A stretch of DNA of 64,000 bases from Rapana venosa (Eukaryota > Mollusca > Gastropoda > Neogastropoda > Muricidae): assembly GCA_028751875.1 (NCBI GenBank), contig CM054167.1:25118377-25182376 (forward strand), given 5' to 3'. The notes under the pieces were generated by a model. It saw only the letters and a program-made list of their open reading frames with translations. It had not been told where the DNA came from and did not search any database. The position numbers and the translations under genes were made by a program. The number at the start of each line of letters is the position of its first letter. Positions within the stretch are counted from its first letter, which is position 1. Shown piece by piece: positions 3,776 through 27,245 of the stretch.

Positions 3776-3939
3776 GTCCCTGTGGGACGACAGTTGCGTG
3801 TGGAGACACGGGGTACAGGGCTGGGCCAGATGCAGGTGAGGGTAGAATACAACGTACCCGTGGAAGCCAACGCCGACTGCCGCTACAACGTCACCATCAC
3901 CAGGCGGGCTGCCTCTTTCTCTCAGTCCCACCAGGATGG
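3776..3939 (+). CDS. C3: C3-like exon: end of CUB/start of MG8 region
   Basis: This exon has 164 nt, starts in phase 0 after TTTCTCTCTCAG and ends two bases into a Gly codon before GTGAGT. It encodes the GTGLGQMQVRVEYN stretch, typical of the strand before the receptor-binding domain in C3/A2M proteins, followed by DCRYNVTITRR. A 2.2-kb minisatellite begins a few bases after the donor. Confidence 0.88.
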
Positions 3940-6537
3940 GTGAGTGAGTCACAGTCACAGTCACACGTTTATTTTCCGTCACAGTCAAAGTCACACTTCT
4001 ATTTTCCGTCAAAGTCAAAGTCAAACTTCTATTTTCCTGCCAAAGTCAAAGTCAAACTTCTATTTTCCGTCAAAGTCAAAGTCGAACTTTTATTTTCTGC
4101 CAAAGTCAAACTTTTATTTTCCTGCCAATGTCAAACTTCTATTTTCTGTCAAAGTCAAACTTCTATTTTCCGTCAAAGTCACACTTCTATTTTCCGTCAA
4201 AGTCAAACTTCTATTTTCCGTCAAAGTCAAACTTCTATTTTCCATCAGAGTCAAACTTCTATTTTCCCGTCAGAGTCATAGTCAAACTTATATTTTCCAT
4301 CAAAGTCAAACTTCTGTTTTCTGTCAAAGTCAAACTTCTATTTTCCACCAAAGTCAAAGTCAAACTTCTATTTTCCGCCAAAGTCAAAGTCAAACTTCTA
4401 TTTTCCGCCAACGTCAAAGTCAAACTTCTATTTTCCGTCAAAGTCAAACTTCTATTTTCCGTCAAAGTCAAACTTCTATTTTCCGTCAAAGTCAAAGTCA
4501 AACTTCTATTTTCCCGCCAAAGTCAAACTTCTATTTTCCGCCAAAGTCAAACTTCTATTTTCCCGTCAGAGTCAAAGTTTTATTTTCCGTCAAAGTCAAA
4601 CTTCTATTTTCCGTCAAAGTCACACTTCTATTTTCCGTCAAAGTCACATTTCTATTTTCCGTCAAAGTCAAACTTCTATTTTCCGCCAATGTCAAAGTCA
4701 AACTTCTATTTTCCGTCAAAGTCAAACTTCTATTTTCTGCCAAAGTCAAAGTCAAACTTCTATTTTCCATCAAAGTCAAACTTCTATTTTCCGTCAAAGT
4801 CACACTTCTATTTTCCGCCAAAGTCAAACTTCTATTTTTCGTCAGAGTCAAACCTCTATTTTCCCGTCAAAGTCAAACTTCTATTTTCCCGTCAGAGTCA
4901 AACTTCTATTTTCCACCAAAGTCAAAGTCAAACTTCTATTTTCCGTCAAAGTCAAACTTTTATTTTCCGTCAAAGTCACACTTCTATTTTCCATCAAAGT
5001 CAAACTTCTATTTTCCGCCAAAGTCAAAGTCAAACTTCTATTTTCTGTCAAAGTCAAACTTCTATTTTCCGTCAAGGTCAAACTTCTGTTTTCCGTCAAA
5101 GTCAAACTTCTATTTTCCGTCAAAGTCAAACTTCTATTTTCCATCAAAGTCAAACTTCTATTTTCCGCCAACGTCAAAGTCAAACTTATATTTCCCGTCA
5201 AAGTCAAAGTCAAACTTCTATTTTCCTGCCAAAATCAAACTTCTATTTTCCGCCAACGTCAAAATCAAACTTCTATTTCCATCAAAGTCAAACTTCTATT
5301 TTCCATCAAAGTCAAACTTCTATTTTCCATCAAAGTCAAACTTCTATTTTCTGTCAAAGTCAAAGTCGTACTTCTATTTTCCGCCAAAGTCAAACTTCTT
5401 TTTTCCGTCAAAGTCAAACTTCTATTTTCCGCCAAAGTCAAACTTCTATTTTTCGTTAAAGTCAAACTTCTATTTTCCGCCAAAGTCAAAGTCAAACTTC
5501 TATTTTCCCGTCAGAGTCAAACTTCTATTTTCCCGTCAAAGTCAAACTTTTATTTTCCGTCAAAGTCAAACTTCTATTTTCCGCCAAAGTCAAACTTCTA
5601 TTTTCTGTCAAAGTCAAACTTCTATTTTCTGCCAAAGTCAAAGTCGAACTTCTATTTTCTGTCAAAGTCAAACTTCTATTTTCCGTTAAAGTCAAACTTC
5701 TATTTTCCGCCAAAGTCAAACTCAAACTTCTATTTTCCCACCAAAGTCAAACTTCTATTTTCTGTCAAAGTCAAAGTCAAACTACTATTTTCCGTCAAAG
5801 TCAAACTTCTATTTTCCGTCAAAGTCAAACTTCTATTTTCCCGTCAAAGTCACACCTCTATTTTCCGTCAAAGTCAAACTTCTCTTTTCGTTTTATTTTC
5901 CGTCAAAGTCAAACTTCTATTTTCCGTCAAAGTCAAACTTCTATTTTCCGTCAAAGTCAAACTTCTATTTTCCGTCAAAGTCACACTTCTATTTTCCGTC
6001 AAAGTCACACTTCTATTTTCCGTCAAAGTCAAACTTCTATTTTCCGTCAAAGTCAAACTTCTATTTTGTCAAAGTCACACTTCTATTTTCCGTCAAAGTC
6101 AAACTTCTATTTTCCGTCAAAGTCAAACTTCTATTTTCCGCCAAAGTCAAACTTCTATTTTCCGCCAAAGTCAAAGTCACACTTTTATTTTGCAGGTGGT
6201 ACATTGAATAAGTTGTGCATTTGTGGGTGGGTGGTTTTTTGGGTGTTTTTTTCGTCAAGCCATCTATCTAAAATTTTTGAAAAAGTGTTTGTGTGTGTAT
6301 ATGTGTGTGTATGTATGTGTGTGTGTATGTGTGTTATTTATTTTAAATTTTTTATTCTTTTATATCGAGGATAATGGAATAAGCACTTATATGCTTTTTT
6401 ACATCCAGTCCCCATGCGTATGCGGTTTTGTAAATTCTGTCATCTCTTCCCCCCAGCACACAGTGGCCTACTCTTCCAAAAAGCGGAACAGGATTTTAAC
6501 GTGTGTGCAAGATGTTCTGCGAGAGTGTTCTGTTAGA

Positions 6538-6572
<35 letters not shown>

Positions 6573-7735
6573 TGTAACTCTGTCTATGTCTGTGAGTGTG
6601 AGAGTGTGTGTGTGTGTGAGTGCAGGTGTGTGTATATGAGTGAGTGTGTGTGTTTGTCTGTGTCTGTATCAGTGTGTGTCTGTCTGCGCATGTCTGCACA
6701 CTTGTGTGCGTGTAAGCATATGTGTGTGCCTTCATACGTACGTAAAATGCCAAATTCCCGTGTTCAGACCAATGTCAATAATGTCAACGTGTTCTTCTAG
6801 TGACGAGGTGTGTCTGTATTGTCAAATGGGCTGTGATGACAATGACGAAGAAGGCAATGGAGGAGATTGCAACAGAGATTAGATGAGGGCGCGTGTGTGT
6901 GGTGTGGTGAGTAACAACTAGCGCCGTCACATCAGTTCTCCAGGTGGCCATTGCATCGAAGTTTGCGTCAGTATGGGGGATTGTTTCTTCCTGTCTCTTT
7001 CTCATGTCTCTGTGTCTGCTGTTGCTGTTTCTCTGCTGCTGTTGTTTGTTTGTTGTTAGTTGTAGTCTCTGATGTCTGTCATGTCTGTCTCTCTGTCTGT
7101 CTTGTTATCTGTTTCTCCAGGGTGGCCATTTGCATCGAAGTTTGCGTCAGGTACGGGGGATTTTCTTCTTCATGTCTCTTTCTCTGTTCCCTGTCTGTCT
7201 GTCTGTTTCTGTCTGTTTCTCTCTGCCTGCCTGTCTGTTTCTGTTTGTCTGTTTCTGTCTGTGTTCTCTGTATGTCTGTCTTTGTCTGTCTCTCTGTCTG
7301 TCTTTGTCTGTCTATCTGTTTCTCCAGGGTGGCCATTTGCATCGAAGTTTGCATCAGGTACGGGGGATTTTCTTCTTCATGTCTCTTTCTCTGTTCCCTG
7401 TTGTCTGTCTGTTTCTGTTTGTTTGTCTCTGTTTGTATTCTCTGTATGTATGGCTTTGTCTGTCTCTCTCTCTGTGTATCTCTGTCTCTCTCAGTCTGTC
7501 TGAGGCAACAACATTAGTTGATGTCCTCTACATGACATAACGAAATTTGGAACTTGTCTCACTTCCTTCACAAAGCCTTCAAGCTGAGAGAAATTGTAGT
7601 ATCCTAGTTCATTATTATGACTCTCTTATTGTTGATTGTATGTTTGTTTGAATGTTTTTGATGAATTTGGTTTTTTTGGTTCAATTTCCCCTTCATTATG
7701 GGCTATGGCCTAATGAATAAACATCCGAATCTGAA

Positions 7736-7768
<33 letters not shown>

Positions 7769-10511
7769 GTCTGTCTATCTGTCTGTCTCTCTGTTCTCTG
7801 TCTGTCTGTCTGTGTTTTGAATATAACTCTATGTTCTTTTATGTTTTTATCACTAGATATTATTTTATGCTTTATTTTTCCAATATACAAGTAATTAAGT
7901 GTGTGAGTGAGGTGTGTGTGTGTGTGTGTGTGCGTGCATGCGTGCGTGCATGCATGTGTGTGTGTATAAGTATGTGTGTGTGTAGATTTTTAGTTGATTT
8001 TCTAATGATGATATTTTGGCATCCATGTGATCAAGAGTCACAGTCTTTGATGTTCTGAGTCCAGTTCTTCATCTGTCTGCCCCTGCATCTTTCCTCCCTC
8101 CTGTGTTCCCTGTAAGTCAATCTTGGTAATTGAGCTGTCAAGTCAAGTCAAATCTTTATTTCCAGCTGGTACATTGAATAAGCAATAGGTAAAGGTATTC
8201 TCATAACCTATGTGGTCATAGGGGAGCGAGGCATCAGAGAACTCAATTTCTCAAGGGGCCCAGCATATTGAGGGCGGCGCCCATCTCCTCTCCCTCACTG
8301 CTTTACCTTCCTTGACCCTAAAGAGGCAGGTACCCTTTTACTGCTGGGTGAACTGGGGGACTGTTCTGAAGCCAAAGCGGGCAAACGGTCACCCATCCAC
8401 TTGGTAAGCACACTCAATGCTGCTTAACCTTAGCTTGGGGAAAGCGAGTGCTCTGACCACTGAGCTATCCGTCCCCCTGAATAAGCAATACATTTTCCTT
8501 TTTTCATCATGCGTGATGTGTAATGCGTGATGTGGCCAAACCACATCAGCTTCCTCTTCTTTTAGTATGTTGCCGTACACCTCGCTCTAAAACTGAACGG
8601 AGATGATTGTGAAGTGAAGTGAAGTGAAGCGAAGTGACGGGGGTGGTGTGTGGGTGGTTGCTGTGTGCAGTTCGACAGACAACATGTATGCTGACCGAAC
8701 CATTGTGGACGTCAGTATGCTCAGTGGGTATCAGCCCGTGGGTGATGACTTGAAGAGGGTCAGTATGTCAACGTGCAGTTTGTATGATAGTGTATCAGTA
8801 AGGAATTTGTTAAACACACACGTGCACACAAATATGCATGCATGCATGTACACAGGCATGCATGGTATGCTCGCAGGCTTGCACACACACATGCACACGC
8901 ACGCACACACACACATACACACACATGTACACACACACACACACACTCTCATATGCACATGCGCATGTACTCAGAACATTTTGCTCACATGTTTAACCCT
9001 GCTCCACCTTTCAGAAAAGTAGGCCTTTTTGTGCTGATAATGAACGGACAACATTAAAAAAACAAAACAAACAAAACCACATGCACTATGACATTACGTT
9101 TTAGACATTACCCTCCCCAGTGAAAATGCTGGGGGGGGGGGGCCTGTCAGTATAAACAGCATCCCCACCTTCTGGAAATTCTGTGCTAGAAATTCCCTCT
9201 TTTCTATCCCTCTCTTTGTTTCTGCCTAGTTCCTTTTTCTTCCTGTCACCTTTTTCTTGTGTCTATTTTCTGCCTTCTTGGTCCATTCTCCTCCTGCCTT
9301 TTTTTCCAAATGCGCTGGGCCTGACTCGTCAGGCTTTTAACGGCAGTGTGACGCACTTTCGCTCATATGACAGACAACAATGAGTCGCTGTCTGAGTGTT
9401 TGAGGAAGAAGAAGAAGAAGAAGACATTACCCCTGAAGTTGGAATGCACCTACCTTAACTCACTCGGGACGGCCAATTCTCTCCCTTGCTTTTCCCCACA
9501 GACGGCCCATTTGTAATGGTTAGTAAAAAAAATCATAAAAAATACAAAACACATAGTAAGAAAATGAAATTTTCTGAACTTATGTATAACATACTGGGTT
9601 AGTACATATATAAAAATTGAAGCTCTCACTTTAGTAAAATGCTGTCATGGAGACCTAATCTGATCCCTTCTATTTTGCTTCTGACACATATGCAAAAATG
9701 CTGGGCGTGTCGGCTACTCTCTGCAACCGCCAACAAAGAGCTCGGAACACACGGAATCACCCGACAACGCACTGCATTCCACCTTGGACAGGCTCACGAA
9801 GCTATGTTTAGCTGCACGAGTCATAGTATCATGCGGCTGCCACATGAAAAATCTGCAAACAGCAAATCCGCTATAGTGGCGAGTCGTCCAAAACCTTGGC
9901 TTTACACTGATCCGCTATAGCGGACAGCCGTCCTCTGAGAGTTAATGGTGGGCAAAGCGGTTGCATACACAAAAATCTCACCATTGATGGACCTCAGAGC
10001 TCTAGCTGAGAAACAAGGACAAACATAGTGAAGAGGAAGATGGACGCCATAGCCGAGTGGTTAAGACCGTTCGACTTAAATCCCATGAGTCCATGAAGTT
10101 CGAATCTCCCAGGTCAACTTCAACCGCAGACCTGCCAGTGCCTTAAACCCTCGCATGTATATACACATTCAAAAGATCAAATATACACGTTAAAGATCCT
10201 GTCATTCATGTCGGCGTTCGTTGGGTTTACGGAAACACGAACATACCCAGCATGCATCTCTGAAGTCAGAGTGTGGCTGCCTTCATGAAGGATGAAAACC
10301 GGTCGCATACGCAAAATCTCACCATTGGTGAACCTCGGAGCTCTAGCCGAGGAACAGAAATAAGTGAAGAACTAAACAAAAAATAAAATAAATAAAAAGG
10401 AAAATTCGTGACATTGTCTTGACGGCTTTTCCTGTCGTGGGATGGGTTTAGGCACATAGAAGCATGCTAGCAAAAGTAGTTGGTAGGGAGGGGGAGGGAG
10501 CTGGGAAGAGG

Positions 10512-10543
<32 letters not shown>

Positions 10544-11762
10544 TTATTTATTTATTTATTTATTCTTTTATTTCAAAGATAATAGAATAAGCATTCATGT
10601 GCTTTTTATACATCCAGTCCCCATGTGTATGCAAGTTTTGTAAATTTTTGTCACCCGTTCCCACCGGCACACAATGGCCTACTCTTCTAAAAAGCAGAAG
10701 AGGATTTAACATGTGTACAAGATGTTGTGCGTGCGTGCGTTGGCGTCCAGGACCTCGGTTTATAGTCTCATCCGATAGCCTTATAGGGAGAGTGGAGTCT
10801 GCACTGATGTTTAACTCCAGAGTAAAAAAAAACCTCTTGAACAAGATTGGAACTTGGGTCAGCAGATCACGAGCGCAATGCCACTCTAACCACTAGTCTA
10901 TCCTGTCCTTTTATTTAATTTATTTTATTTTATTCTTTTATATCGAGGATAATGGAATGAGCACTTATGTGCTTTTTTACATCCAGTCCCCGTGTATATG
11001 CAAGTTTTGTAAATTTTGTCATCCGTTCCCACCGGCACACAATGGCCAGCTCTTCCGAAAAGCGGAATGGGTTAATGTTGTTCAGCTTGTGATAGTTGTT
11101 GTTATTGGTTTCTTTTTGTGTGTGTGGTTTTCAGATCTACGCCAAAAAGGAGCAGCTGTCTTTAAGCAGTTTGATCTACGATCAGGAACGAGTGTCAGTG
11201 GAAATGAAGTTCAACCAGGTAAAATGTCACAATTTAAGGAAGCAAGCCTGTAAAGCAAAGTTTGGAAGAGTAAGAAATAGAAAGAAAGCAAATAGTACAC
11301 ATGTAACAGTAAGATTTTTAACATGTATGGGAAGATGGATTAAGATGCGTTCACAAAAAAATAAAGAAATAATGCAGAAAGAGTAGTGGAGGAAAATTTA
11401 TTTATCATTTATCTATTTGTACCACTTAAAGTCACAGCAGATTTCTCTGCGTGAAATTGGGACTGCTCTCCCCGGGGAGAGTGTGTCGCCACAAGAGCAG
11501 CGCCACCCTTTTTTTTTTTTTTTTCCCTGTCTGCAACTGTGTTTGTTTTCCTATCAGAGTGCAGATAATAAAAAAGAAAGAAAGTGAGAGAATGAAGGAA
11601 TGAATTATAATAATAATAATAATATATGGAATTTATATAGTGCTGAATCTTGTAAAAAACAAACAAATCGAAGCGCTTGCACTCAATCATTTACAGGCAT
11701 GCAACTCTCCTTAAACATAATGAACAACAGATTTCAAATCCATGTGTGCGCATGTATGCACG

Positions 11763-11802
<40 letters not shown>

Positions 11803-14800
11803 CTCGGAACAACACTTAGAAGGTGAAAGATGCTGTTGAAAATAGGGACAGATATGTGGGGGGAAAGTCTCAGGTAGGAAATAAGTGTGTTTTGAGGCTG
11901 GATTTTATCTTTATTTTTCAAGAGTAGCAAATAAGCGTTCACATTCTTTTTTTTCTTCTTTTTCTGGCCATTGCCCTGATGAGGGACTAGAGGAAAGAAA
12001 AATGTTGAATCAACCTATGATTTAAAGAAAAAAATATTTTTGGCAGAGAGAGAGAGAAAGAGAAGAGAGAGAGGGAGAGACAGAGAGAGAGAGACAGACA
12101 GACCAGACCAGACAGACAGACACCAGACAGACAGACAGACAGATAGACCAGACAGACAGAACAGACAGACAGACCAGACCAGACAGAACAGATAGACAGA
12201 CAGACCAGACCAGACCAGACAGACAGACAGACAGACAGATAGACCAGACAGACAGAACAGACAGACAGACAGACCAGACCAGACCAGACAGACAGACAGC
12301 CTGACAGATAGACCAGACAGACAAACAGACAGACAGACAGACCAGACCAGACAGACAGACAGACAGATAGACCAGACAGACAGATCAGACAGACAGACAG
12401 ACCAGACCAACAGACAGATCAGACAGCCTGACAGATAGACCAACAGACAGACCAGACAGACAGACAGACAGACAGATAGACCAGACAGACAGACCAGACA
12501 GACAGACAGACAGACAGATAGACCAGACAGACAGAACAGATAGACAGACAGACCAGACCAGACCAGACAGACAGACAGCCTGACAGATAGACCAGACAGA
12601 CAAACAGACAACAGACAGACCAGACCAGACCAGACAGACAGCCAGCCTGACAGATAGACCAGACAGACAGACCAGACAGACAGACAGACAGACAGATAGA
12701 CCAGACAGACAGAACAGATAGACAGACAGACCAGACCAGACCAGACAGACAGACAGCCTGACAGATAGACCAGACAGACAAACAGACAGACAGACAGACC
12801 AGACCAGACAGACAGACAGACAGCCTGACAGATAGACCAGACAGACAGACCAGACAGCCTGACAGACAGCCTGACAGATAGACAACCTGACAGACAGACA
12901 GACCAGACAGACAGACAGACAGACCAGACAGACAGACAGACCAGACAGACAGACAGACAGACAGCCTGACAGATAGACCAGACAGACAGACCAGACAGAC
13001 AGACAGACCAGACAGCCTGACAGACAGACCAGACAGACAGACCAGACAGACAGACCAGACAGACAGACCAGACAGCCTGACAGACAGACAAACAGACAGA
13101 TAGACCAGACAGACAGACCAGACAGCCTGACAGACAGACCAGACAGACAGACCAGACAGACAGACCAGACAGCCTGACAGACAGACCAGACAGACAGACC
13201 AGACAGACAGACCAGACAGACAGACCAGACAGCCTGACAGACAGACAGAACCAACAGACAGACAGACACAGACAGACAGACAGATAGACCAGACAGACAG
13301 ACCAGACAGCCTGACAGACAGACAAACAGACAGATAGACCAGACAGACAGACCAGACAGCCTGACAGACAGACAAACAGACAGATAGACCAGACAGACAG
13401 ACCAGACAGCCTGACAGACAGACAAACAGACAGATAGACCAGACAGACAGACCAGACAGCCTGACAGACAGACAAACAGACAGATAGACCAGACAGACAG
13501 ACCAGACAGACAGACCAGACAGCCTGACAGACAGACCAGACAGACAGACCAGACAGCCTGACAGACAGACCAGACAGACAGACCAGACAGCCTGACAGAC
13601 AGACCAGACAGACAGACCAGACAGACAGACCAGACAGCCTGACAGACAGACCAGACAGACAGACCAGACAGCCTGACAGACAGACCAGACAGACAGACCA
13701 GACAGCCTGACAGACAGACCAGACAGACAGACCAGACAGCCTGACAGACAGACCAGACAGACAGCCAGACAGACAGACCAGACAGACAGACCAGACAGAC
13801 AGACAGACAGACAGACAGAAAAGACAGACAGACAGAACAGACAGACAGACAGACCAGACCAGACCAGACAGACAGACAGCCTGACAGACAGACCAGACAG
13901 ACAACAGACACGACAGACAGACCAGACCACAGACAGACAGACAGCCGACAGACAGACCAGACAGACAGACCAGACAGCCTGACAGACAGCCTGACAGATA
14001 GACCAACCAGACCCGACAGACAGACCAGACAGACAGACAGACAGACCGACAGACAGACAGACAGACCAGACAGACAGACAGACAGACACACAGATAGACC
14101 AACAGACAGACACAGACAGACAGACAACCAGACAGCGAGACAGACAGACCAGACAGACAGACAGACCAGACAGGACCAGACAGACAGACCAGACAACAGA
14201 CCAGACAGACAGACAGACAGCCTGACAGACAGACAAACAGACAGAAGACCAGACAGACAGACCAGACAGCCTGACAGACAGACCAGACAGCTGACAGACA
14301 GCCAGACAGCCTGACAGACAGACCAGACAGACAACCAGACAGACCAGACAGACAGACCAGACAGACAGACCGACAGCCTGACAGACAGACCAGACAGACA
14401 GACCAGACAGACAGACCAACAGACAGACCAGGACAGCTGACAACAGACAAACAACAGATAACCCAGACAGACAGACCAGACAGCCTGACAGACAACCAAA
14501 CAACATGAATCAGACCAGACAGACGAGACCAACAGCCTGACAGACAGACAAACAGACAGATAGACCAGACAGACAGACCAGACAGCCTACAGACAGACAA
14601 CACAACAGATCAGCCCAGACAACAGACCAGACACCTGACAGACAACCAGTACAGACAGACCAGACAGCTGACAGACAGACAGACAGACAGACCAGGGACA
14701 GCCTGACAGACATACCAGACAGACAGACCAGACAGCCTGACAACAGACCAGCAGACACCAACAGCCTGACAGACAGACCAGACAGACAGACAGACAGCTA

Positions 14801-17800
14801 GACGACAACCAGACAACAGACCAGACAGACAGACCAGACAGACAGACCAGACAGCCGACAGACAGACAATCAGACAGACCAAACAACCGACACCTGCAGA
14901 CAGCCGTACGACATTGACCCACCTGACGACAGACCAACAACGACCACACCTACACGACCACAGACAGACCAACAGCCTGACACAGCCCAGCACAACAGAC
15001 CAACAGCCTGACGACAGCCAGACAGACGACCAGACAGCACCAGACAGCTAGACCAGACACCTACAGTGACTAACGACAGACGCCGCAACAGCAGCAGCCT
15101 GCGACGACCACCAACAGCAACGACAGACCAGCCAGACTATCAGAGACACACACACAACAGAGAGACACACAGACAGAGACACACAGACAGGAGACACACA
15201 GCACCAGCCAGCTGACCAGACAGGACCACACAGACACAGACACAAACAGACCACACAGACACACAGACAGAGACAGACAGACAGAGTATAAACGTGTTAC
15301 TATTGGACATCGCAGATTCCCCACGACCGGAACACGTGTGTGTCATTCCGAGCTGTGGAGAAGCACGACGTGGAGCGTCGTAACCCAGCCGTGGTGACAG
15401 TGCGTTCCCATGAAGATCCAGGTAACTGACAACACCCCCCCCACCCCCACCCCACCCCACCCCACCCCAACCCCACCCCCTTCCCATGAATTCATTCTTT
15501 TTTTTTTCTTTTTTTTTCGATGGCCTCAGTTGCATGCAGGTCACGGAGCACCATCTTTTGTGTGTTTTTTTTCTCTTTTTCCTCTTCTTACCCTGAATTC
15601 ATTCTCACTCTGACCAATTCAGCTTCTCTATTTCCTTTTTAATCTACCTAGGCTTCCTGAAGATCGAGTATAGCTGCCTTTTTTCTTTTTTTTGGGGGGG
15701 ACGAGAGAGTAGAGGGCAAGGGGTATACATGCTAAACTGTACTAAGAGATGCGAAAAGCGAATTTGAAAGTTTGACGCAATAGCTCGCAAAGAAAGTTTT
15801 TTTTTACACAAATTGAAAACTGAATGCAGAACTAGCAAAATTAGGCAAGTGAAGACAGTAAGTAACAATTGAAACCAACCCCCATCATCCTCCTCTTCTT
15901 CCTCCCCCCCCCCCCCCCCCCCCCCACCCCCCTTCTTTGCACAACACTTTAAAGTCTGTGGTAAAGTATGTGTATGATGCGCAAATTTGTGAGTGGATTT
16001 TATTTCTCTTTTATATCGAGGTTAATGGAATAAGTGCTTATTGCTTTTTTTTTACATCCAGTCCCCGTGTGTATGCGGATAAGTATGTGCGTGTGTGCTT
16101 GCGAATGTATGTGCGTGCGTGTGTGCTTGTGCATGCGTGTGTGTGTGCATGTGCACACGTGTATGTGTCTGTGTTTATGTGTGTGGCGTGTGTTGCTCGT
16201 GCATTGTCAGTTCTTGTATAATTAGTAATACATGTGTTATACGTGCATTAATATTGAACAAAAAAACAGCACTTTCATTAACCAACTCATTCACTTGCAG
16301 CCAGTTACAATTAATAGGCTTTTAAAAATTTTTTTACAAGTTCAAATTTATACACACACGCTCTCACACGCGCATGCACACACACACATAAAGATTTACT
16401 AATCTAGGTCATGTGAACAGTATTACTGAAACAAACACATCTATGTGAACATCAAGTTTTGTTACTATCAAGTAAAAGAAAGGCTGGGAAAGGAAAAAAA
16501 AAACAAAATGTGGAAATAACTCCATCAATGAAATCTTTTTTTAAAGTTATTAAAAAAACCAAAACCCACCAAAATAAGAAAACGGGAGAGAAAACAAATA
16601 ATAAAAAAAGAAAGACCTAGAATTAAAAAGCAAAAGTTAAAAAAACTGGAATCACGCCAAAGTTGGATACGCTGCACCTGAACTTGCCAAGCACTTAACG
16701 GCAACGCTACACATTTTTCGCTTATATGACATACAGCAATAATAATAATAATAACAACATATAGAATTTGAAGAGCTCTGAATCTTGTAAAGCAAGATCC
16801 TTCGGATGAGACTATAAACCGAGGCCCCGTGTTCGCAGACTCAACGCAGAACATCTTTTGCGCACAGGGTTTATAAATCCTTTTTCCCTCAGAAGAGTTT
16901 TGGCCAGTGGCGTGGAAGTCAGGTTGAAGAATTTTACCAAAGGCCACTAGCCCCGGGCTGAGCAAAAAAGGACTGCGAGTGCCCCCTTTGTCCATATCCT
17001 CACTAAAGATTAAATAAAAAATTAATGAATAAAGCAAACACTGGGCAAAGTGCCCTTTGCATTTCCACATCAATTTTAACAAGAATGTGAAAACCCGGTG
17101 AAATCCCAGCCCCAAAAAACCGCAAGAAAAGTTGCTGTCTGAGCGTTCGACGAAAAAAAAGAAGGCGAAGTAAAACAAAAAAAAATCATCTTTTATTTCA
17201 GAACCGACGTGTGTGCACACCTATGACCCCGTGGTGTCAGAGGTCAACCTGGAAGTGTACTGTGCCAGCAACCAGTCAAACAATCAGGGACAGTGTCGCT
17301 GTTTTTCAGGTCAGTGTCACTTTCTGTGTTGTTGCAGTGTTTCACGTGCCATGTTGTCCTCTGTTTCTGGTCCTTGGTTTCTCGTTACCTATGCAAAATT
17401 GTTATTGTAGTATCAATACCTTGTGGGGGGGGGGGGGGGGGGGGGGGTCGTGTGAAGGAGTAAGCTGTTGTATTTCATTGGTGTAAAAAAGAGAAAAAAA
17501 GTGACTGGTGTTTTTGGATTCCTTGTGAAATTTGGAGTTAGTTTCCTATTTATTATTATGGTACGTGTTACTTCCCTTTGACTTCACAGCACAGTTGTTT
17601 ATGTTTTGAGTTTGTGTGTGTGTTTTAAAAAAAAAAAAAATAATTTTGAGGATAATGGAATAAGCACATGTGTGTTTCTTACATCCAGAATTGTCCTGTG
17701 TGTATGCAGTTTTGTAAATGTTGTCTTCCGTTCCCACAGGCACACAAAGGCCTATTCTTCCAAAAAGCGGAATAGGTTTTAGCGTGTGCACAAGATGTTC

Positions 17801-20696
17801 TCTGTGTGTCAGAACCTGGGACCTCGGTTCATAGTTTCATCCTACGGACTTTTGTTAATTCCAAGGGACATGATGATGTGTGTCACTGGTTTATGTTTGT
17901 TTGTTGTAGCTTCAGCAAGTGAGTTTATCGCCAATGGACATGTGCACCATTGTTATTTGTTGTTGTTGTTGTTGGTTTATATTTCAGGGCTGTGTGGGCG
18001 GTGCTACACAAGGAGGGACGATGTGTCGCTCAGTCTCATTCGTACCCTGGCTTGTGGCTCAGAATATAGTGAGTGTTCAAGGATCTTTTGTCACACCCTT
18101 ACTCCCAAATAAGTGAATGAATGAACGAGCAAACAAACAAACAAACGAAGGAAGGAACGAAAGACTTTATTTATTTATTTATTCTTTTATATCAAGGATA
18201 ATGGAATAAGCACTCGTGTGCTGTTTTACATCCAGTCCCTGTGTGTATGCAGTTTTGTCAATTTTGTCATCTGTTCCCACCGGCACACAATGGCCTACTC
18301 TTTTGAAAAGCGGAACAGGATTTAACGTGTGCGCAAGATGTTCTGCGTGCGTTCGCACACGGGGCCTCGGTTTATAGTCTCATCCGAAGACTGACTGAAT
18401 GAGTGAGTGAGTGAGTGAATGAATAAACGAATGAATGAATGAATGAATGAGTGAATAAACAAGCATAAATGAAGAAAAATTGTGGAAGTTTTTCGTGACA
18501 TGATGTTGATATACATACAGAGAAATAATCATCGAAAATTAAAATTCTTAAACGCCTGTCAATCATTTGTGATGTGCGCGCACACGCACACGTATCAAAA
18601 ATTAAAATTCTTAAATGCCTGTCAATCATTTGTGATGTATGTGTGCGTGCGCGTGTGCGCGCGCAGGCACACACGTGTAAAGCGCTTACAAATGAAATGA
18701 GATGATAGAAATAAAATAACCTGTGTAAACTCTCTGCGATGTTTTCAGTCTACAAGATCGCCCCACCCTCCACTTCCCTCTCTGATGACTGGGTGGATAT
18801 GAGGGCAGACGTCATGGGCATCTCCAAAAATGGTGAGTCGCTGATCTTATCTGTTCCCGGGCCAAAAGCTGTGTCAGTTATTGAAGTCAGCTAATTGCCA
18901 AGGCCTACACTAAACTGACGGACTAGAGAAACTGTTATGGAGTGGCAAAATATGTGGAAACAAGAGCAGAGGAAGACAACGCACAAAATTCACAGACAGC
19001 TTAAACAAATTCGCAACGAATGAAGAGGGCACCCAACAATGAGCTCATGAGAGGGACCGAGAACAGGGAAGAATGGAGAGCCATGATCGTCGATGTCTGC
19101 AGGACCAGACCGGACACTTGAAGAGAGAGACACTAAAATGTTGTTATGTTGTAGTAAAATGTTGTGTTAAGATTGTACCTTCAGCCATGACAAGCTCTTA
19201 ACATGACAAACTGCACTCTCCTTTAAGTTTATAAGGAGAAAAAAATCCTATGAAGCCGGAGTACGGCTGCCTATATGGTACGGTACTTAAAAACAGTCAT
19301 ACATGTAAACTTCTCATTCAGTGTGGCGATTTCAATCTCACAGTGATTCTTAGGTGGGATGAGTGAGTCAGAGTGCATATTCTGGGTGACCCCCAGAGTG
19401 TTAAGCTGGGGAACGCACAACAACAACATTTGGCCTGGGGCAAAAACTTTGCCTGTCATTATTTTATGTTTGGGATAGCTCAGTGGTCAGAGCACAGCTC
19501 TCCTGGGCTAAAGTTAAGCAGCGTTGAGCATTGTTACCAAAGTGGATGGGCGACCATTCGTGTGCCTTGGCTTCTGTACAGTCCCCCAGTTCACCCAGCT
19601 GTAAATGGGTACCTGCCCTCTTTAGGGTCAGGAAAGATAAAGCAGCGAGGGAGAGGAGATGGTCGCCGCCCTCAATATGCTGGCCCTAGAGAAGTGAGGT
19701 CTCTGACGCCTCGCTCCCCTATGGCCACTTAGGTTATGGACCCCCCCCCCTTCCCCCCAATTCATGTATGCAAAGTGCCAGGGTCTCCTTCATGAAAATG
19801 CTGTTGCCCTTTGAAATCTTATGTTGAGATTTCTTCAGGCATAACATGCTCTTAGTATAGCATCATGTGGGTTAAAAAAAAAAAGGTGTTCCCATAACCT
19901 GTGTGGTCTTTGGGGAGCGAGGCGTCAGAGACCTCAGCTTCTTCAGGGGCCAGCATATTGAGGGCGGCGTCCATCTCCTCTCCCTCGCTGCTTTACCTTC
20001 CCTGACCCTAAAGAGGGCAGATACCCATTTACAGCTGGGTGAAGGGGGGGAGGGGGGAACTGTACTGACTTAACCTTAGCTTGGGGAAAGTGAGTGCTCT
20101 TGACTGCTGAGCTATCCCACCCTCAGGTAAAATAACTTGTACTCTCTATTAAAGGGAGATAAATTCCCTCTGAAGTCAGAGTATGGCTGTCTATTTAATG
20201 TTGAGATACTTGAAAACAATCGGAATATATGTGAGCTTCTAATCCATTATGGACTTACAATCTCAAGTTGATTCCCAGGTGTGATTACTCTTTTTATTAT
20301 TCTTTAATTTTGAGGATAGTGGAATAAGCGCTCATGTGCTTTTTTTAATTTTTAACATCCAGTCCTCGTGTGTATGCAGTTTTGTAAATGTTATCATCCA
20401 TAGTCCATTATGGACTTGCAATCTCAAGTTGATTCCCAGGTGTGATTACTCTTTCTATTCTTATTCTTGTATTTCAAGGATAATGGAATAAGCGCTCATG
20501 TGCTTTTTTAAAATATATTTACATCCAGTCCCCGTGTGTATGCAGTTTGGTCAATTTTATCATCCGTTCCCAACCGTATGAGTGAGAGAGAGAGTGGGTA
20601 ATTGGGGGTGACCCTCATGTTGTTGCTAAGCTGTAAAACAACAGCGACGGCAACAACAAGAAGAACAGAACCTAGTGAATCTTGAATGCTGTGTGT

Positions 20697-20753
<57 letters not shown>

Positions 20754-23261
20754 GTGGACAGGCTCGGAGGCAGTGGAGCCACAGATCCACCTGGTTACAC
20801 CTCGCAGTTGTACCTGCCCCCATCGCGCAGGGTACAACGCTCCCCACTTCTTCTTCGGCTCGCAAGTCACCACTTTTGTCGACAGGCACAACCAGCAGAA
20901 GTGAGTCGGCCGTACAGACTATCGTTCGTAGCAACTGGTTTTTTTAAAAAGTCGTAAGACCGTTTGGCTTTAATCCTGTGGGTACTTGAGATCAAGGGTT
21001 GAATCTCTGTGGGGTCGCGTCTGGTGAATCGAAAGGTTGGTATTTCAAAATATCCAAGGTCAACGTGTTAAAGTGCAGAACTGCCAGTGCCTTAATTCCC
21101 TTCATGTATATATATATATACACATGCAGAAGATCAAATATGCATGTTAGAGACCCTGTTTTTCATGTCGGTGTTCAGTGGGTCACGGAAACACAAACAT
21201 ACCTAGCAAGCAGCTTGTACAATAAAAGGAGCTGCTCTGAAGTCGGAATGTGTCAGTTAAGTTAAGGCCAGTGAGCATCCTGCAAATTTACAAGCACAGG
21301 AGAAGACCAAGCACTATGCACCCCTTCCAACAAGGGAATGCAGAGAAGAGAGAAAGAGAGAGCATTAAGAACGGTTCAAAAGTCAACAGGGTTTTTGTTC
21401 GTTGCGCATATTTTATTTTTCTGTATTCTTTTATTTCAAGGATAATGGAATAAGCACACTCGCGGTTTTTTTTTCCATCCAGTCCCCGGGTGTATGTGCA
21501 TAAGTTAATTAACCCTTTCAGTATCTTTATTGAATAACATTCCAAAAATGAGTAACTTTCTGTTTGGTGTGTATTTGATTTAACCCTTTCAGTGCCCCCT
21601 CCCACCCGCCTCTCCCCTGACAGAAATTTCATGTTTCAGTATGTCTCTAATGACTTTCAGGGTGTCACTAAAGATTTAGTGTTATTAAAAAAAAAAAAAA
21701 AAAAGGGATTAGCCCAGGCCAAAAGTGTGTCAGTTATTTATGTCGGCTAATTGCCAAGGCCTACACTAAAATGTTGTTATGGTGTAAAATGTTGAGTTCA
21801 GATTATCTTCAGCCATGACAAGCTCTTAACATAACAACCTTCACTCTCTTGTCAAGGAGAAAAAACCCTCTGAAGTCAGAGTATGGCTACCTACGTGGCG
21901 ATGATACTTGAAAACAGTCATACATGCAAACTTCTCATTCAGTGTGTTCACAGTGATTCCCAGGTGGGATGAGTGAGTCTTTATCAAAGCATATTCAAGG
22001 TGACCCTCAGGTTGTTCCACTGGGGAATGAGCAACATCAACAACAACAATAACAACAACAGCAACAACAAAGAAACAAACAGATGAACAAACAAGGCCGT
22101 ACGTTTAAAAATCTTACCGTACAATATGTAGTAGTTGTGAATGTATTTGTGGGGAGATGGGGGGGGGGGGGGGGGGGGGTGGGGGGCACTGTGATAAAAA
22201 AAATTACTTGCAAGAATACCTAACTCAAGATTAGGGTTTTTCAGGTAATATCTGTGGAAAGAGTTGATATTTATGTGTTTCAAATTATATTTGAAAATGA
22301 AAAGGTAAAGGTGTCCCATAACCTTTGTGGTCTTTGGGGAGCAAGGCATCAGAGACCTCAGCTTCTCTAGGGGCCAGCATATTGAGGGCAGCAGCGCCCA
22401 TCTCCTCTCCCTCGCTGCTTTACCTTCCCTGACCCTAAAGAGGGCAGGTACCCATTTACAGCTGGGTGAATTGGGGGACTGTACTGAAGCCAAGGTGCAC
22501 AAACAGTCACCCATCCACTGGGCAACCACTCTCATGCTGCTTAACTTGAGCTTGGGGGAGAGTGAGTGCTCTGACCACCAAGATGTTTAATATGTGTGTG
22601 TGCATATTATGTATGCATACTAGTACAAGTACATCTCCGTGTGTGTTTATTATTTATTATTGTTATTTTTTTTAAAATTCTATTTTATTTTATTTTATTT
22701 CAAGGATAATGGAATAAGAACTCGTGTGCTTTTTTACATCCAGTCTCCATGTGTATGCAGTTTTGTAAATTTTATCATCCGTTCCCATCGGCACACAATG
22801 GTTACTCTTCCGAGAAGCTGAACAGGTTTTAACATGGGTAGAGATGTTGTGCGTGCATTCACACACAGGACCTCGGTTTATAGTCTCAGCTGAAGGAACA
22901 TTTTTGGGGGGAGTGGAGTCGGCACTGTGTGTGGTTTATTCTCCTGTTCAATTTGTTTGTAATCCTCCATACCCCAAAAAGGGGTGAAAGGAATTAAATC
23001 TTGAATCTTAAATCTTGTATTGTGTGTTGTGTGTTTGTGTGTGTGTAAGTGTGCGTGTGCACGCGAGCATGCGTGCATGTACTATACCATCATATATTAT
23101 ATACTATACCATTACTAAAATTCAGTCTCCCATGTATTTGCAGGAAGACATATTTGGTGGACCACACGACAACATTCGTGATCGCTTCATCCGATATCGT
23201 CAACGATCCCAACCGCACTGCCAACTTTATCAACAGCGCTCTGCGAGACTGCGGCAACTGA
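3776..23261 (+). CDS. C3: Complement C3-like thioester protein, 3' part of the gene (10 coding exons plus duplicate microexons)
   Basis: Exons 3776-3939, 7121-7150 (or 7328-7357), 8671-8758, 11135-11218, 15316-15421, 17202-17309, 17988-18068, 18749-18832, 20762-20900 and 23144-23261 splice at AG/GT borders into one open frame of 333 codons plus TGA. Residues about 1-165 match the end of the macroglobulin core and the receptor-binding (MG8) region: GTGLGQMQVRVEYN, then RTIVDVSMLSGYQP, then DRNTCVSFR and TCVHTYDP. About 166-225 is a cysteine-rich anchor (CRCF, CGRCY). About 226-333 is a C345C/netrin-like domain ending LRDCGN, comparable to the C-terminus of vertebrate C3. The family is a secreted opsonin that binds targets through a thioester; that part lies 5' of the window. 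The anchor plus C345C separates it from alpha-2-macroglobulin and insect TEPs. C4 or C5 affinity cannot be excluded. Confidence 0.9.
3945..6195. repeat. 24/30-bp minisatellite built from a SINE-F tail
   Basis: About 85 copies of a unit like CAAACTTCTATTTTCCGT are joined by one or two CAAAGT hexamers, giving 24- or 30-bp periods. Both strands stay open in several frames. The right end runs straight into a minus-strand SINE-F at 6190-6275. Confidence 0.93.
6190..6275 (-). repeat. SINE-F fragment at the edge of the minisatellite
   Basis: It contains GGTACATTGAATAAG and CGTCAAGCCATCTATCTAA, which are the reverse complement of the SINE-F 3' part seen at 39130-39220 and 45070-45165. Confidence 0.75.
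6352..6528 (-). repeat. SINE-A copy
   Basis: It starts ATTCTTTTATATCGAGGATA and ends near GTTCTGCGAGAG, the reverse complement of the SINE-A 3' half. TG dinucleotide runs flank it (6285-6340, 6540-6740). Confidence 0.85.
6540..6740. repeat. TG-rich microsatellite
   Basis: TG runs are interrupted by TCTG and AGTG units. Confidence 0.85.
6944..6970 (+). pseudogene. Decayed copy 1 of the C3-like microexon
   Basis: This copy resembles the microexons at 7121 and 7328 but is only 27 nt. It has lost a T in the ATT-TGC part and bases at each end. In the required phase it would encode unrelated residues instead of VAICIEVCV. Acceptor-like TCTCCAG and donor-like GTATGG are still visible. It is read as a dead duplicate. 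Confidence 0.7.
7121..7150 (+). CDS. C3: C3-like 30-nt microexon, copy 2
   Basis: A 30-nt exon sits between GTTTCTCCAG and GTACGG. It enters in phase 2 and leaves in phase 2, so the frame of the flanking exons is preserved. It encodes VAICIEVCV, which corresponds to the LEICTRY-type strand just before the conserved DVSMLSG motif in C3 proteins. The flanking introns are TCTG/TGTC-rich. Confidence 0.8.
7160..7510. repeat. TCTG/TGTC microsatellite around the microexons
   Basis: CTGTCTGTCTGTTTCTG-type repeats occupy the intron on both sides of microexon copies 2 and 3. A similar TCTC/TCTG run recurs at 7735-7815. Confidence 0.85.
7328..7357 (+). CDS. C3: C3-like 30-nt microexon, copy 3 (alternative)
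   Basis: This is almost identical to the microexon 207 bp upstream, including GTTTCTCCAG and GTACGG. It differs by one G-to-A change that replaces the last Val with Ile (VAICIEVCI). It has the same phases, so it could replace or follow copy 2 without breaking the frame. Confidence 0.72.
7515..8184. other. Intron DNA with SINE-tail fragments
   Basis: It holds AT-rich unique DNA, a TG run (7912-7985) and a SINE-F tail fragment at 8140-8185 (CAAGTCAAGTCAAATC). No coding signal is seen. Confidence 0.55.
8185..8480 (-). repeat. SINE-C (tRNA/5S-like head) copy
   Basis: On the - strand it reads GGATAGCTCAGTGGTCAGAG, then TTAAGCAGCATTGAGTGTG and AAGTGGATGGGTGACCG. The second part looks like the internal 5S rRNA promoter region. 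The rest matches the copies at 19473, 22300, 58310 and 60583. Confidence 0.82.
8671..8758 (+). CDS. C3: C3-like exon with the DVSMLSGY motif
   Basis: This exon has 88 nt, entered after CTGTGTGCAG in phase 2 and left before GTCAGT in phase 0. It encodes STDNMYADRTIVDVSMLSGY followed by QPVGDDLKR. The IVDVSMLSG core is a hallmark of the receptor-binding domain of C3/alpha-2-macroglobulin proteins. Confidence 0.9.
8815..8960. repeat. CA-rich microsatellite
   Basis: CACACA/CATGCA runs lie downstream of the 8671-8758 exon. A SINE-A remnant follows at 8955-9055. Confidence 0.8.
9127..9423 (+). repeat. SINE-E with GAA tail
   Basis: It contains GGGGGCCTGTCAGTATAAAC near the head, TCTTTGTTTCTGCC, TTTTCTGCCTTCTTGGTCCA, CTGGGCCTGACTCGTCAGGC and TCGCTCATATGACAGACAAC, then (GAA)n. 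Other copies are at 41895, 47568, 61193 and 62000. Confidence 0.8.
9424..10020 (+). repeat. SINE-H tail interrupted by a TTAA element
   Basis: GAAGTTGGAATGCACCTACC before 9455 and TGGTGGGCAAAGCGGTTGCA after 9945 join to the SINE-H tail seen uninterrupted on the - strand at 48740-48840. The tail ends in the family motif GAGCTCTAGCTGAG. Confidence 0.75.
9455..9945. mobile_element. TTAA-flanked inverted-repeat element (MITE)
   Basis: TTAA target duplications lie at 9455-9458 and 9942-9945. The inner ends CTCACTCGGGACGGC and, reversed, CTCTCAGAGGACGGC agree at about 11 of 15 positions. There is no transposase frame. The TTAA target and short imperfect repeats suggest a piggyBac-type non-autonomous element. 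Confidence 0.75.
10040..10360 (+). repeat. SINE-H copy with tRNA(Leu)-like head
   Basis: The head GCCGAGTGGTTAAGACCG resembles the 5' part of a class II tRNA, with a B-box-like GAAGTTCGAATCTC. The tail holds CATACCCAGCATGCA and CTCACCATTGGTGAACCTCG. A related copy lies at 20945-21260. Confidence 0.75.
10558..10908 (-). repeat. SINE-A copy with full head
   Basis: It runs from ATTCTTTTATTTCAAAGATA to a tRNA-like head at its right end. An AT run and (TTTA)n precede it. Confidence 0.85.
10930..11075 (-). repeat. SINE-A 3' half
   Basis: Reverse complement of the SINE-A tail, TCTTTTATATCGAGGATAAT through AAAAGCGGAA. Confidence 0.83.
11135..11218 (+). CDS. C3: C3-like exon: receptor-binding domain, middle
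   Basis: This exon has 84 nt, phase 0 at both ends, between GTGGTTTTCAG and GTAAAA. It encodes IYAKKEQLSLSSLIYDQERV and eight more residues. This matches the position of the YISKYELDK...IIYLDKV segment of vertebrate C3. Confidence 0.87.
11425..11530 (-). repeat. SINE-B 3' fragment
   Basis: It reads, reversed, as the end of the family at 28305, 49507 and 54128, including the CTCTCCCCGGGGAGAG palindrome and AGCAGATTTCTCTGCGTG. Confidence 0.78.
11600..12010. repeat. Repeat G motif, CA run and an older repeat
   Basis: (ATA)n with GGAATTTATATAGTGCTGAA is followed by a CA run (11770-11800). The GGGACAGATATG...GGGGAAAGTCTCAGGT stretch recurs, diverged, at 61720-61790. Confidence 0.65.
12040..15290. 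repeat. GACA-type satellite with a higher-order CCAGACAGCCTGACAGA unit
   Basis: About 3.2 kb of CAGACAGA units are organised into GACAGACCAGACAGCCTGA blocks of roughly 42 bp. Homogeneous blocks lie around 13080-13780. Irregular, indel-rich copies from 14450 to 15120 look decayed or poorly assembled. The 862-residue open frame on the - strand is an artefact. Confidence 0.95.
15316..15421 (+). CDS. C3: C3-like exon: end of receptor-binding domain
   Basis: This exon has 106 nt, enters in phase 0 and ends in phase 1 before GTAACT. It encodes IPHDRNTCVSFRAVEKHDVE, then a stretch ending TVRSHEDP. The acceptor (ACATCGCAG) has a poor pyrimidine tract because the upstream intron is a GACA-rich array. 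The frame and homology still fit. Confidence 0.85.
15422..17201. other. Intron with C-runs, TG runs and SINE fragments
   Basis: Poly-C/CCCCACC runs lie at 15435-15480 and 15900-15930, a SINE-A fragment (-) at 16005-16085, a TG run at 16085-16190, and CA at 16350-16390. SINE-E and repeat G pieces are at 16640-16795, a SINE-A fragment (+) at 16796-16915 and a further SINE-E tail at 17130-17165. No gene is seen. Confidence 0.6.
17202..17309 (+). CDS. C3: C3-like exon: end of MG8 and start of cysteine-rich anchor
   Basis: This exon has 108 nt between TTTTATTTCAG and GTCAGT, phase 1 to phase 1. It encodes EPTCVHTYDP, a region with YCASNQ, and QCRCFS. In vertebrate C3 the same place has the SCTRFYHPE and CRCAEENC motifs. 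Confidence 0.88.
17637..17850 (-). repeat. SINE-A copy
   Basis: Reverse complement of SINE-A from AATTTTGAGGATAATGGAAT to TTCATAGTTTCATCC, in the intron before the exon at 17988. A poly-G run is at 17425-17447. Confidence 0.82.
17988..18068 (+). CDS. C3: C3-like exon: anchor region
   Basis: This exon has 81 nt after TATATTTCAG and before GTGAGT, phase 1 to phase 1. It encodes LCGRCYTRRDDVSLSLIRTL and ACGSEY. It aligns with the CF...VTLEERLDKACEPGVDY segment of C3, so two of the anchor cysteines are conserved in place. Confidence 0.88.
18181..18392 (-). repeat. SINE-A copy
   Basis: Clear reverse complement of SINE-A, ending CGGTTTATAGTCTCATCCGA; an ATGA/GTGA run follows to 18450. Confidence 0.86.
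18540..18660 (+). repeat. Two-copy direct repeat
   Basis: AAAATTAAAATTCTTAAAYG followed by CCTGTCAATCATTTGTGATG occurs twice, starting near 18535 and 18597, separated by GCGCAC/CACG runs. Confidence 0.75.
18749..18832 (+). CDS. C3: C3-like exon: first part of C345C domain
   Basis: This exon has 84 nt between GATGTTTTCAG and GTGAGT, phase 1 to phase 1. It encodes IYKIAPPSTSLSDDWVDMRA and a segment ending GISKN. Position and pattern (YKI...D.Y/W...I..K.G) match the start of the C3 C345C domain. Confidence 0.85.
18857..19426 (+). repeat. SINE-D copy with CAA tail, interrupted by a LINE fragment
   Basis: GGGCCAAAAGCTGTGTCAGT opens it and GCTGGGGAACGCACAACAAC closes it. The insert 18915-19130 splits the conserved CTACACTAAAATGTTGTTATG stretch. 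Related copies are at 21710, 25661 (-) and 42964. Confidence 0.8.
18915..19130 (+). mobile_element. 5'-truncated LINE 3' end inside SINE-D
   Basis: It encodes, with breaks, a reverse-transcriptase C-terminal tail (LWSGKICG, then REEWRAMIVDVC-like, ending TRPDT and a stop). CACTAAA at 18908-18914 and 19131-19137 is the target-site duplication. Confidence 0.72.
19473..19735 (+). repeat. SINE-C copy
   Basis: Plus-oriented: GGGATAGCTCAGTGGTCAGA, then AGTTAAGCAGCGTTGAGCAT and AAGTGGATGGGCGACCA. The tail reads AAATGGGTACCTGCCCTC. Confidence 0.83.
19795..20290. repeat. SINE-D remnant interrupted by a minus-strand SINE-C
   Basis: SINE-D pieces flank a SINE-C at about 19885-20125. They are TTGAGATTTCTTCAGGCATA before it and CCTCTGAAGTCAGAGTATGG after it. 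Confidence 0.6.
20300..20575 (-). repeat. Two partial SINE-A copies separated by a duplicated 60-bp block
   Basis: SINE-A 3' pieces are at 20300-20402 and 20462-20575. The block TTATGGACTTGCAATCTCAA...GTGTGATTACTCTTT occurs before each, which suggests a local duplication of about 170 bp. Confidence 0.65.
20695..20756. repeat. GT microsatellite ending at the splice acceptor of exon 20762
   Basis: An almost pure (GT)n run of about 60 bp stops 5 bases before the acceptor AG. Confidence 0.9.
20762..20900 (+). CDS. C3: C3-like exon: core of C345C domain
   Basis: This exon has 139 nt, phase 1 to phase 2, ending before GTGAGT. The acceptor GTTGTGGACAG directly follows a GT dinucleotide run. It encodes a segment with SCTCPH, a hydrophobic FFFG turn and TTFVDRHNQQ. 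It fits the C345C/netrin-like fold by position and cysteine spacing. Confidence 0.85.
20945..21260 (+). repeat. SINE-H-like copy
   Basis: GTAAGACCGTTTGGCTTTAA, GGTTGAATCTCTGTGGG and GGAAACACAAACATACC match, diverged, the copy at 10040. Confidence 0.65.
21424..21670. repeat. SINE-A 3' piece and two TTAACCCTTTCAGT sites
   Basis: A short minus SINE-A piece (21424-21500) is followed by TTAACCCTTTCAGT near 21510 and 21578. These are direct repeats resembling the ends of the TTAA elements at 25861 and 35589. Confidence 0.55.
21710..22080 (+). repeat. SINE-D copy with a long CAA tail
   Basis: Same family as 18857 and 42964. The tail CAACAACAACAATAACAACA extends to about 22078. A poly-G tract follows at 22158-22187. 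Confidence 0.8.
22300..22585 (-). repeat. SINE-C copy
   Basis: AGGTAAAGGTGTCCCATAAC through CATCCACTGGGCAACCACTC; reverse complement gives the tRNA/5S-like head. Confidence 0.82.
22692..22925 (-). repeat. SINE-A copy
   Basis: TTATTTCAAGGATAATGGAA through GGTTTATAGTCTCAGCTG, reverse orientation, shortly before the last C3-like exon. A TTGAATCTT repeat end and a GT run follow to 23060. Confidence 0.83.
23144..23261 (+). CDS. C3: C3-like last exon with stop codon
   Basis: This exon has 118 nt after CATGTATTTGCAG, phase 2, ending in TGA. It encodes KKTYLVDHTTTFVIASSDIV and a C-terminus ending SALRDCGN. Vertebrate C3 ends similarly (GCPN). The final cysteine closes the C345C domain. Confidence 0.9.
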
Positions 23262-26586: not shown

Positions 26587-27245
26587 AAATGGCAGCAAAG
26601 ATTGAGCATACGATTTGGGAGGAATATACTGATATGGAAATTGAAGCTATTTTGGCTCAAGTGGAACAGTTCGAAAGAGAATGAAATGTTTAATCCAATG
26701 TTGAAGTAGATGTAGAAGAAAGAGATGAAATAGGAGAAGGTAGTGAGTCGGAAAGTGATGCTGAGGATAACATTCCCTTGGCTTCATAGCAGACGACATG
26801 GTGTGGCACACAAGTGCCTTGCACAGTGCAAGACTTCACGCTGCCGACTGGGCCGGCACAAACTCTCCCACTGAATTCCAAGCCCTTAGATTACTTTGTT
26901 TTGTTTGTGCCTCAACATTTTTTTCAAATTGTAGCAGATGAAACTAACAATTATGCCAGGCAAAAGATCGCTGTGAAAGACTTAGCCATAGATCCATTAC
27001 GGACAGAAACAACACCTGATGAAATTAGGGCTTACCTGTCAGTTTTGATCATGATGGGGATCAAGCATTTGCCAAGGCTTCATCTCTACTGGTCTACTGA
27101 TTTGAGATTTTCTGAGTCACGGATCAGTAAAATTATGACGAAAACCAGATTTCTCAAAATTAATCAGTATTTTCACCTGAGAAACACGCCAACACACCTG
27201 GACGTGACACTGGGCTGTGACACCTGCATTGTGACAGCCATGTAA
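26587..27245 (+). pseudogene. piggyBac-type transposase, N-terminal part, broken
   Basis: An N-terminal segment MAAKIEHTIWEEYTDMEIEA runs to a stop near 26684. A second frame from about 26814 encodes DETNNYARQKI, EIRAYLSVLIMMGIKHLP and YWSTDLRFSESRISKIM, followed by RFLKINQYFHLR. These match the start of the DDE_Tnp_1_7 (piggyBac) domain. The frame stops at 27245 and the catalytic Asp residues are absent. The copy is dead. Confidence 0.8.

Follow-up and report, generated by a model that had tools for sequence, protein, structure and literature searches.

Tandem exon duplication yields in-frame tandem copies of exon sequence together with flanking intron (PMC2592719, citing Kondrashov and Koonin, 2001; PMC9013439). 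Sets of mutually exclusive exons occur in thioester-containing protein (TEP) genes, with 12 exons in BgTEP2 and six in CfTEP (PMC7016707). In C3-like genes, the alpha-gamma cleavage site is reported to have been lost many independent times, a loss said to have helped C3, C4 and C5 to diverge, and the gastropod type I C3-like proteins are described as having lost the thioester, the ANATO domain and the alpha-beta site (PMC8960428). In this study, 64,000 nucleotides (nt) of the gastropod Rapana venosa (assembly GCA_028751875.1, contig CM054167.1, positions 25,118,377 to 25,182,376 of the forward strand; this whole stretch is hereafter the window) were analysed, and the C-terminal part of a C3-like gene was found to carry two nearly identical 30-nt microexons, M1 and M2, downstream of a longer, decayed exon.

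M1 and M2 probably arose by duplication of the tail of this longer parent exon and took over splicing from it, with loss of a linker that carries a furin-type motif. A fuller scenario, which we put forward tentatively and rate slightly below an even chance, is that a single tail duplication made a complete in-frame microexon, replaced the parent, and removed the predicted furin-site linker and with it one chain cut.

Results

M1 (7121–7150) and M2 (7328–7357) lie on the plus strand, each 30 nt long in phase 2-2 with ag/gt borders, and encode VAICIEVCV and VAICIEVCI, respectively. The initial annotation had described two splice-competent, symmetric copies separated by a single Val/Ile change, and this description was confirmed: the two are identical at 29 of 30 positions, every combination of them stays in frame, and the one difference (GTC in M1, ATC in M2) is a G/A change at a CpG. 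Their surroundings form an ungapped 89-nt block with 1 mismatch, and a whole-window scan allowing up to 3 mismatches matched only M1 and M2. A chance origin of the copies was ruled out, as 0 of 100 dinucleotide shuffles gave a match. Splice sites were scored with consensus frequencies; both microexons have a donor score of 8.4, compared with 1.7 for the parent exon and 6.0–10.2 for the other eight internal donors, and 13 of 16 acceptor positions are pyrimidines in both, compared with 10 of 16 in the parent and 8–14 of 16 in the other exons.

The gene was then set against eight long relatives, among them those of Nucella lapillus (P0006), Babylonia areolata (P0007), Littorina littorea (C3-like 2, P0011), Pomacea canaliculata and Batillaria attramentaria (partial). 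P0008 is a partial sequence, five short open reading frames (ORFs) that hold only exon E1 are excluded from the counts, and the comparison is one of proteins, not of exon borders. All eight relatives contain a linker that has [VM]-C-x-x-C-x-M-x-C near its start, varies in length (55 residues in P0009), is often acidic, and includes a furin-type R-x-[KR]-R motif (seven detected by script, and RFRR of P0013 by eye). In seven of the eight, a strand such as RVAICIEVCIR follows directly after the linker; each of these seven has an Arg immediately before the strand, and the furin-type motif lies 5–7 residues before this Arg. The form RVAICIEVC is found in the two closest relatives, and the M2 peptide is matched at 9 of 9 residues in P0006 and P0009, at 6 of 9 in P0011 and at 2 of 9 in P0007. 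P0007 is the exception, in that its linker with RRRR (residues about 1330–1380) is present but the predicted protein is without the strand, a gap that would be either a missed microexon or a mis-prediction.

The decayed parent exon, which encoded linker plus strand, was located at 6801 to about 6970 on the plus strand by tblastn of P0006, frameshift-aware alignment and splice scores. Its remnant, DEVCLYCQMGCDDNDE..., begins at 6802, after an AG at 6799–6800, in the frame left by E1, and it carries two in-frame TAGs (6880–6882 and 6919–6921), small base losses near the 3′ end and a weak donor. In detail, alignment with P0009 required two frameshifts, near 6940 and 6950, that with P0006 required none but opened a gap, that with P0010 required two, at 6865 and 6885, and crossed the second TAG only, while that with P0011 extended over the first 17 residues only, with no lesion there. 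Over 80 columns, the parent-specific changes are 4 substitutions and 9 lost bases (three single ones and one run of six), with 0 gained. When lesions were placed at random over 1202 nt, the probability that both TAGs fall in the 170-nt parent was p = 0.02, and that for four lesions (both TAGs and the two frameshifts that P0009 required) was p = 0.0004, a value that leans on indels that vary by relative and could be sequencing errors.

The 3′ tail of this exon, 6944–6970 on the plus strand, had originally been read as a decayed 27-nt microexon, and the whole as a triplicated microexon. Because the remnant is continuous from 6801 and aligns with the linker-plus-strand segment of the relatives, 6944–6970 is the end of the longer parent exon, and an independent microexon at this place, which spliced alone would read WPLHRSLRH, was rejected. 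Of the proposed triplication, the two tail copies stand and the third member becomes a single, longer, decayed exon.

Homology, order and shared flanks show, at the level of sequence, that M1 and M2 were copied in tandem from the 3′-terminal part of an ancestral exon, each with the intron behind it. Three units (u0, u1 and u2) align across tail plus intron, and the TCTG-rich M1–M2 intron (7151–7327, plus strand, 177 nt) was duplicated along with the exon tail, in agreement with the recent tandem duplication in TCTG-rich sequence that had been suggested initially. The similarity of the copies to the parent begins at about 6931–6936, the duplicated unit starting at about 6931, and upstream of M1 and M2 a TCTG-type intron stands in place of the parent coding sequence. 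M1 and M2 are thus adjacent, homologous, same-phase exons of one gene, as in tandem exon duplication, and compared with each other the copy is the whole microexon. Compared with the parent, what was copied is not a whole exon with both splice sites, but the last 30 nt and the downstream intron.

The intron 3′ of the last unit contains TCTCTCAG, so that intron and exon were probably joined at a short stretch of homology. Such a join would have fused the TCTG-rich intron to the coding TTCTCCAGG, by which a former coding AG, in the Arg codon before the strand, would have come to serve as a good acceptor, the native donor being copied along. If this Arg codon was AGG, as CCAGG in the window suggests, it would have supplied the acceptor AG/G. 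The first tail duplication would then have yielded, in a single step, a microexon that is symmetric and in frame, and a second duplication would have produced the other.

Splicing has probably since shifted to the microexon(s), and the parent exon, once freed, would have decayed. The present mRNA would run from E1 through M1 and/or M2 to E3, and its protein would keep the conserved strand and lose the linker with the furin-type motif. The gamma chain of C4 is a separate chain that starts a little upstream of the corresponding segment. In a 214-residue piece of P0009, residue 116, inside the strand, aligns with residue 16 of C4 gamma (a weak match, E 0.06). The furin-type motif in the snail protein would thus be close to the alpha-gamma junction of C4, and cleavage by furin is predicted there. 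Loss of the motif would drop one predicted chain cut, that is, from three chains to two with an alpha-beta cut, and from two to one without. If the alpha-beta cut is absent, as PMC8960428 reports for gastropod type I, a single chain would therefore remain after the site loss.

The gene model around this region is otherwise regular. On the plus strand, exon E1 (3776–3939, 164 nt, VPVGRQLRVETRGTGLGQMQ...SHQDG), supported by its identity to relatives, ends in phase 2, and of its 55 residues 47 are identical in P0006, 46 in P0007, 45 in P0009 and 41 in P0011. It is followed beyond the microexons by E3 (8671–8758, 88 nt, STDNMYADRTIVDVSMLSGYQPVGDDLKR), E4 (11135–11218, 84 nt, IYAKKEQLSLSSLIYDQERVSVEMKFNQ) and E5 (15316–15421, 106 nt, IPHDRNTCVSFRAVEKHDVERRNPAVVTVRSHEDP), by four exons of the C-terminal region, E6 (17202–17309, 108 nt), E7 (17988–18068, 81 nt), E8 (18749–18832, 84 nt) and E9 (20762–20900, 139 nt), and by the last exon, E10 (23144–23261, 118 nt), with a TGA stop. 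All introns of the model are GT-AG, and the nine exons other than the microexons (E1 and E3–E10, 972 nt) contain zero stops or frameshifts. With one microexon copy the frame is exactly 333 codons plus stop, as had been annotated; it is 343 codons with both and 323 with neither. The nine exons cover P0009 from residue 1315 to the end, with gaps totalling 55 positions, which is roughly the length of the linker.

Identification of the gene as C3-like, made in the initial annotation, was borne out by matches to PDB, Pfam and gastropod C3-like proteins. The best PDB matches of a 158-residue part of the model belong to the C3 group (cobra venom factor, E 1.8e-8; C3, E 3.1e-8), and an A2M receptor-binding domain is present (A2M_recep, PF07677, scoring 51.3 bits, with the cut-off at 21.7). 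The strand does adjoin the receptor-binding motif on its N-terminal side, with strand and domain labels resting on alignment to C3. The one-copy spliced protein, which is without the linker, shows only gaps of 1–3 residues when aligned with vertebrate C3, and the linker is therefore an insertion relative to C3. For the C-terminal C345C domain, single-frame Pfam scans over 8.7–38.7 kb matched no NTR domain; the spliced model can be aligned with P0011, a protein that has PF01759, through to its last part. In the three plus-strand frames, these scans returned only pieces of A2M_recep and one transposase; tblastn of the relatives extended over all of the window. The window carries the C-terminal part of the gene only, and the exons for the thioester, ANATO and alpha-beta site would be upstream of it.

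The best BLASTP matches of the model are P0009, P0006 and P0007. Over the 333 codons, identity is 51–67% for P0011, P0006, P0007 and P0009, linker gap included, and 44–49% for P0008, P0010, P0012 and P0013. The GCGEQ thioester motif occurs in none of the eight (0/8), which identifies the closest relatives as thioester-less gastropod C3-like proteins; they fit gastropod C3-like type I of PMC8960428, an assignment by features. P0006 and P0008–P0013 (7/7) share the motif QI[SL]ACGDLMGD, which seems, by position before any alignment, to occupy the thioester site instead of GCGEQ, and P0007 is without it. Retention of this motif suggests a constrained, thioester-independent function. A further ORF, P0003 (105 residues, on a 662-nt ENA contig), contains the E1 start and preceding residues twice (LACLQIPVG...LHIV), a pattern suggestive of a further partial exon duplication within this gene family. 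A degenerate microexon pattern and the peptide P0001 were searched against viral_contigs only, and no related DNA locus was found there.

Repeats and mobile-element remnants were also observed in the window. The intron upstream of the parent exon is filled by a 24/30-nt minisatellite, GTCAAACTTCTATTTTCC (about 3960–6190), and the E4–E5 intron holds a low-complexity array (12015–14609), in which an 864-residue open frame on the minus strand is built of repeats. A DDE_Tnp_1_7 transposase piece lies at 26883–27194 on the plus strand (Pfam E 9.7e-19) and is presumably of piggyBac type. A reverse-transcriptase-like translation, FIDFKKAFDRVWH...VRQGCLLSPTLFNIF (31883–32242, minus strand), surfaced as a chance BLAST row, and we take it to be a reverse transcriptase, probably the remnant of a long interspersed nuclear element.

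Discussion

Alternative or mutually exclusive use of the copies, one of the possibilities raised initially, is favoured by M1 and M2 being intact, symmetric, in frame and equal in splice-site scores, but no mechanism of exclusion was found. Mutually exclusive exons are enforced by a short spacer, by mixed spliceosome types, by nonsense-mediated decay (NMD) or by competing RNA pairing, and none of these four was found here. The spacers known to act by steric exclusion are shorter than the 177 nt between M1 and M2, both microexons have GT-AG borders, and double inclusion and skipping both stay in frame, so that NMD cannot enforce a choice. In a crude test, pairing of the introns to 6200–6800 and to 7535–8670 did not exceed that of shuffled sequences: in each of the four comparisons, between 31 and 40 of the 40 shuffles reached at least the observed value. 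The two products are also set apart by a single conservative substitution. Alternative exon sets are known in other snail genes of the TEP family, which resemble the present locus in protein superfamily and in having duplicated neighbouring exons; however, according to PMC7016707, the 12 exons of BgTEP2 vary in length and composition and the sets encode a bait-like central region, whereas the window copies are near-identical and lie beside the receptor-binding domain. For a Pomacea C3, which may or may not be the ortholog of the present gene, PMC13365339 reports a single dominant transcript, with no splice variants. We rate regulated alternative or mutually exclusive use of M1 and M2 as quite unlikely.

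Replacement of the parent exon has also to be weighed against errors in the assembly and against death of the gene. An intact parent in the animal, with M1 and M2 real but redundant, and each either left out by splicing or contributing 10 residues, would agree with the small losses without gains near the parent tail. This loss-only pattern could stem from long-read errors in a repeat, and polishing of tandem repeats is difficult. The acceptor of the parent looks normal, being no weaker than others of the gene (10 of 16 pyrimidines against 8–14), and the frameshift count varies with which of the four relatives is aligned. These points tell against the replacement. Both TAGs (6880, 6919), however, lie upstream of the duplicated unit, and the 972 nt of other exons are without an indel, and we consider this explanation unlikely. 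A recent pseudogene or null allele, in which duplication and lesions would both be part of the decay, is suggested by the breakage of an exon encoding a segment whose linker occurs in 8/8 relatives, and a gene that died recently, or a polymorphic one, could have the same appearance. Against it, the nine other exons and the two microexons are all open and have canonical sites, and the disabling changes are concentrated in the parent exon, which makes it quite unlikely. The replacement by tail copies is further weakened by the likeness of M1 and M2, too great for constraint to reveal which of them is used, and by the equality of the two copies, from which double inclusion is predicted as readily as single use. 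Double inclusion may be tolerated, because the added VAICIEVCVR would be inserted where the relatives carry the linker.

We regard the feature as real and as a variant of tandem exon duplication, marked by tail-only copying and a self-made acceptor, in which the parent was probably replaced by its tail copies. In such duplication as described in PMC2592719 and PMC9013439, copies are in-frame exons with flanking intron, whereas here only the exon tail was copied, the acceptor was newly made from coding sequence, and it is the parent, not a copy, that decays. For the origin of microexons or for partial-exon duplication, no matching case was found among the papers listed, and a precedent may be in print. 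The gastropod thioester-less C3-like proteins (P0011, P0006) have the same segment order and A2M_recep domain as the window gene, in which, by contrast, the linker exon is broken in the part with the furin-motif region, and two separate microexons are available to encode the strand.

Similar to the alpha-gamma site losses described in PMC8960428, the loss of one chain-cleavage site is predicted here, with the difference that a specific route in one gene, exon replacement, is proposed. If this is true, the locus would show an alpha-gamma-type site loss with its mechanism still legible, that is, exon-tail duplication, splice switch and decay of the parent. The locus also suggests a simple route to a microexon, in which placing a pyrimidine-rich repeat in front of a coding AG turns that AG into an acceptor.
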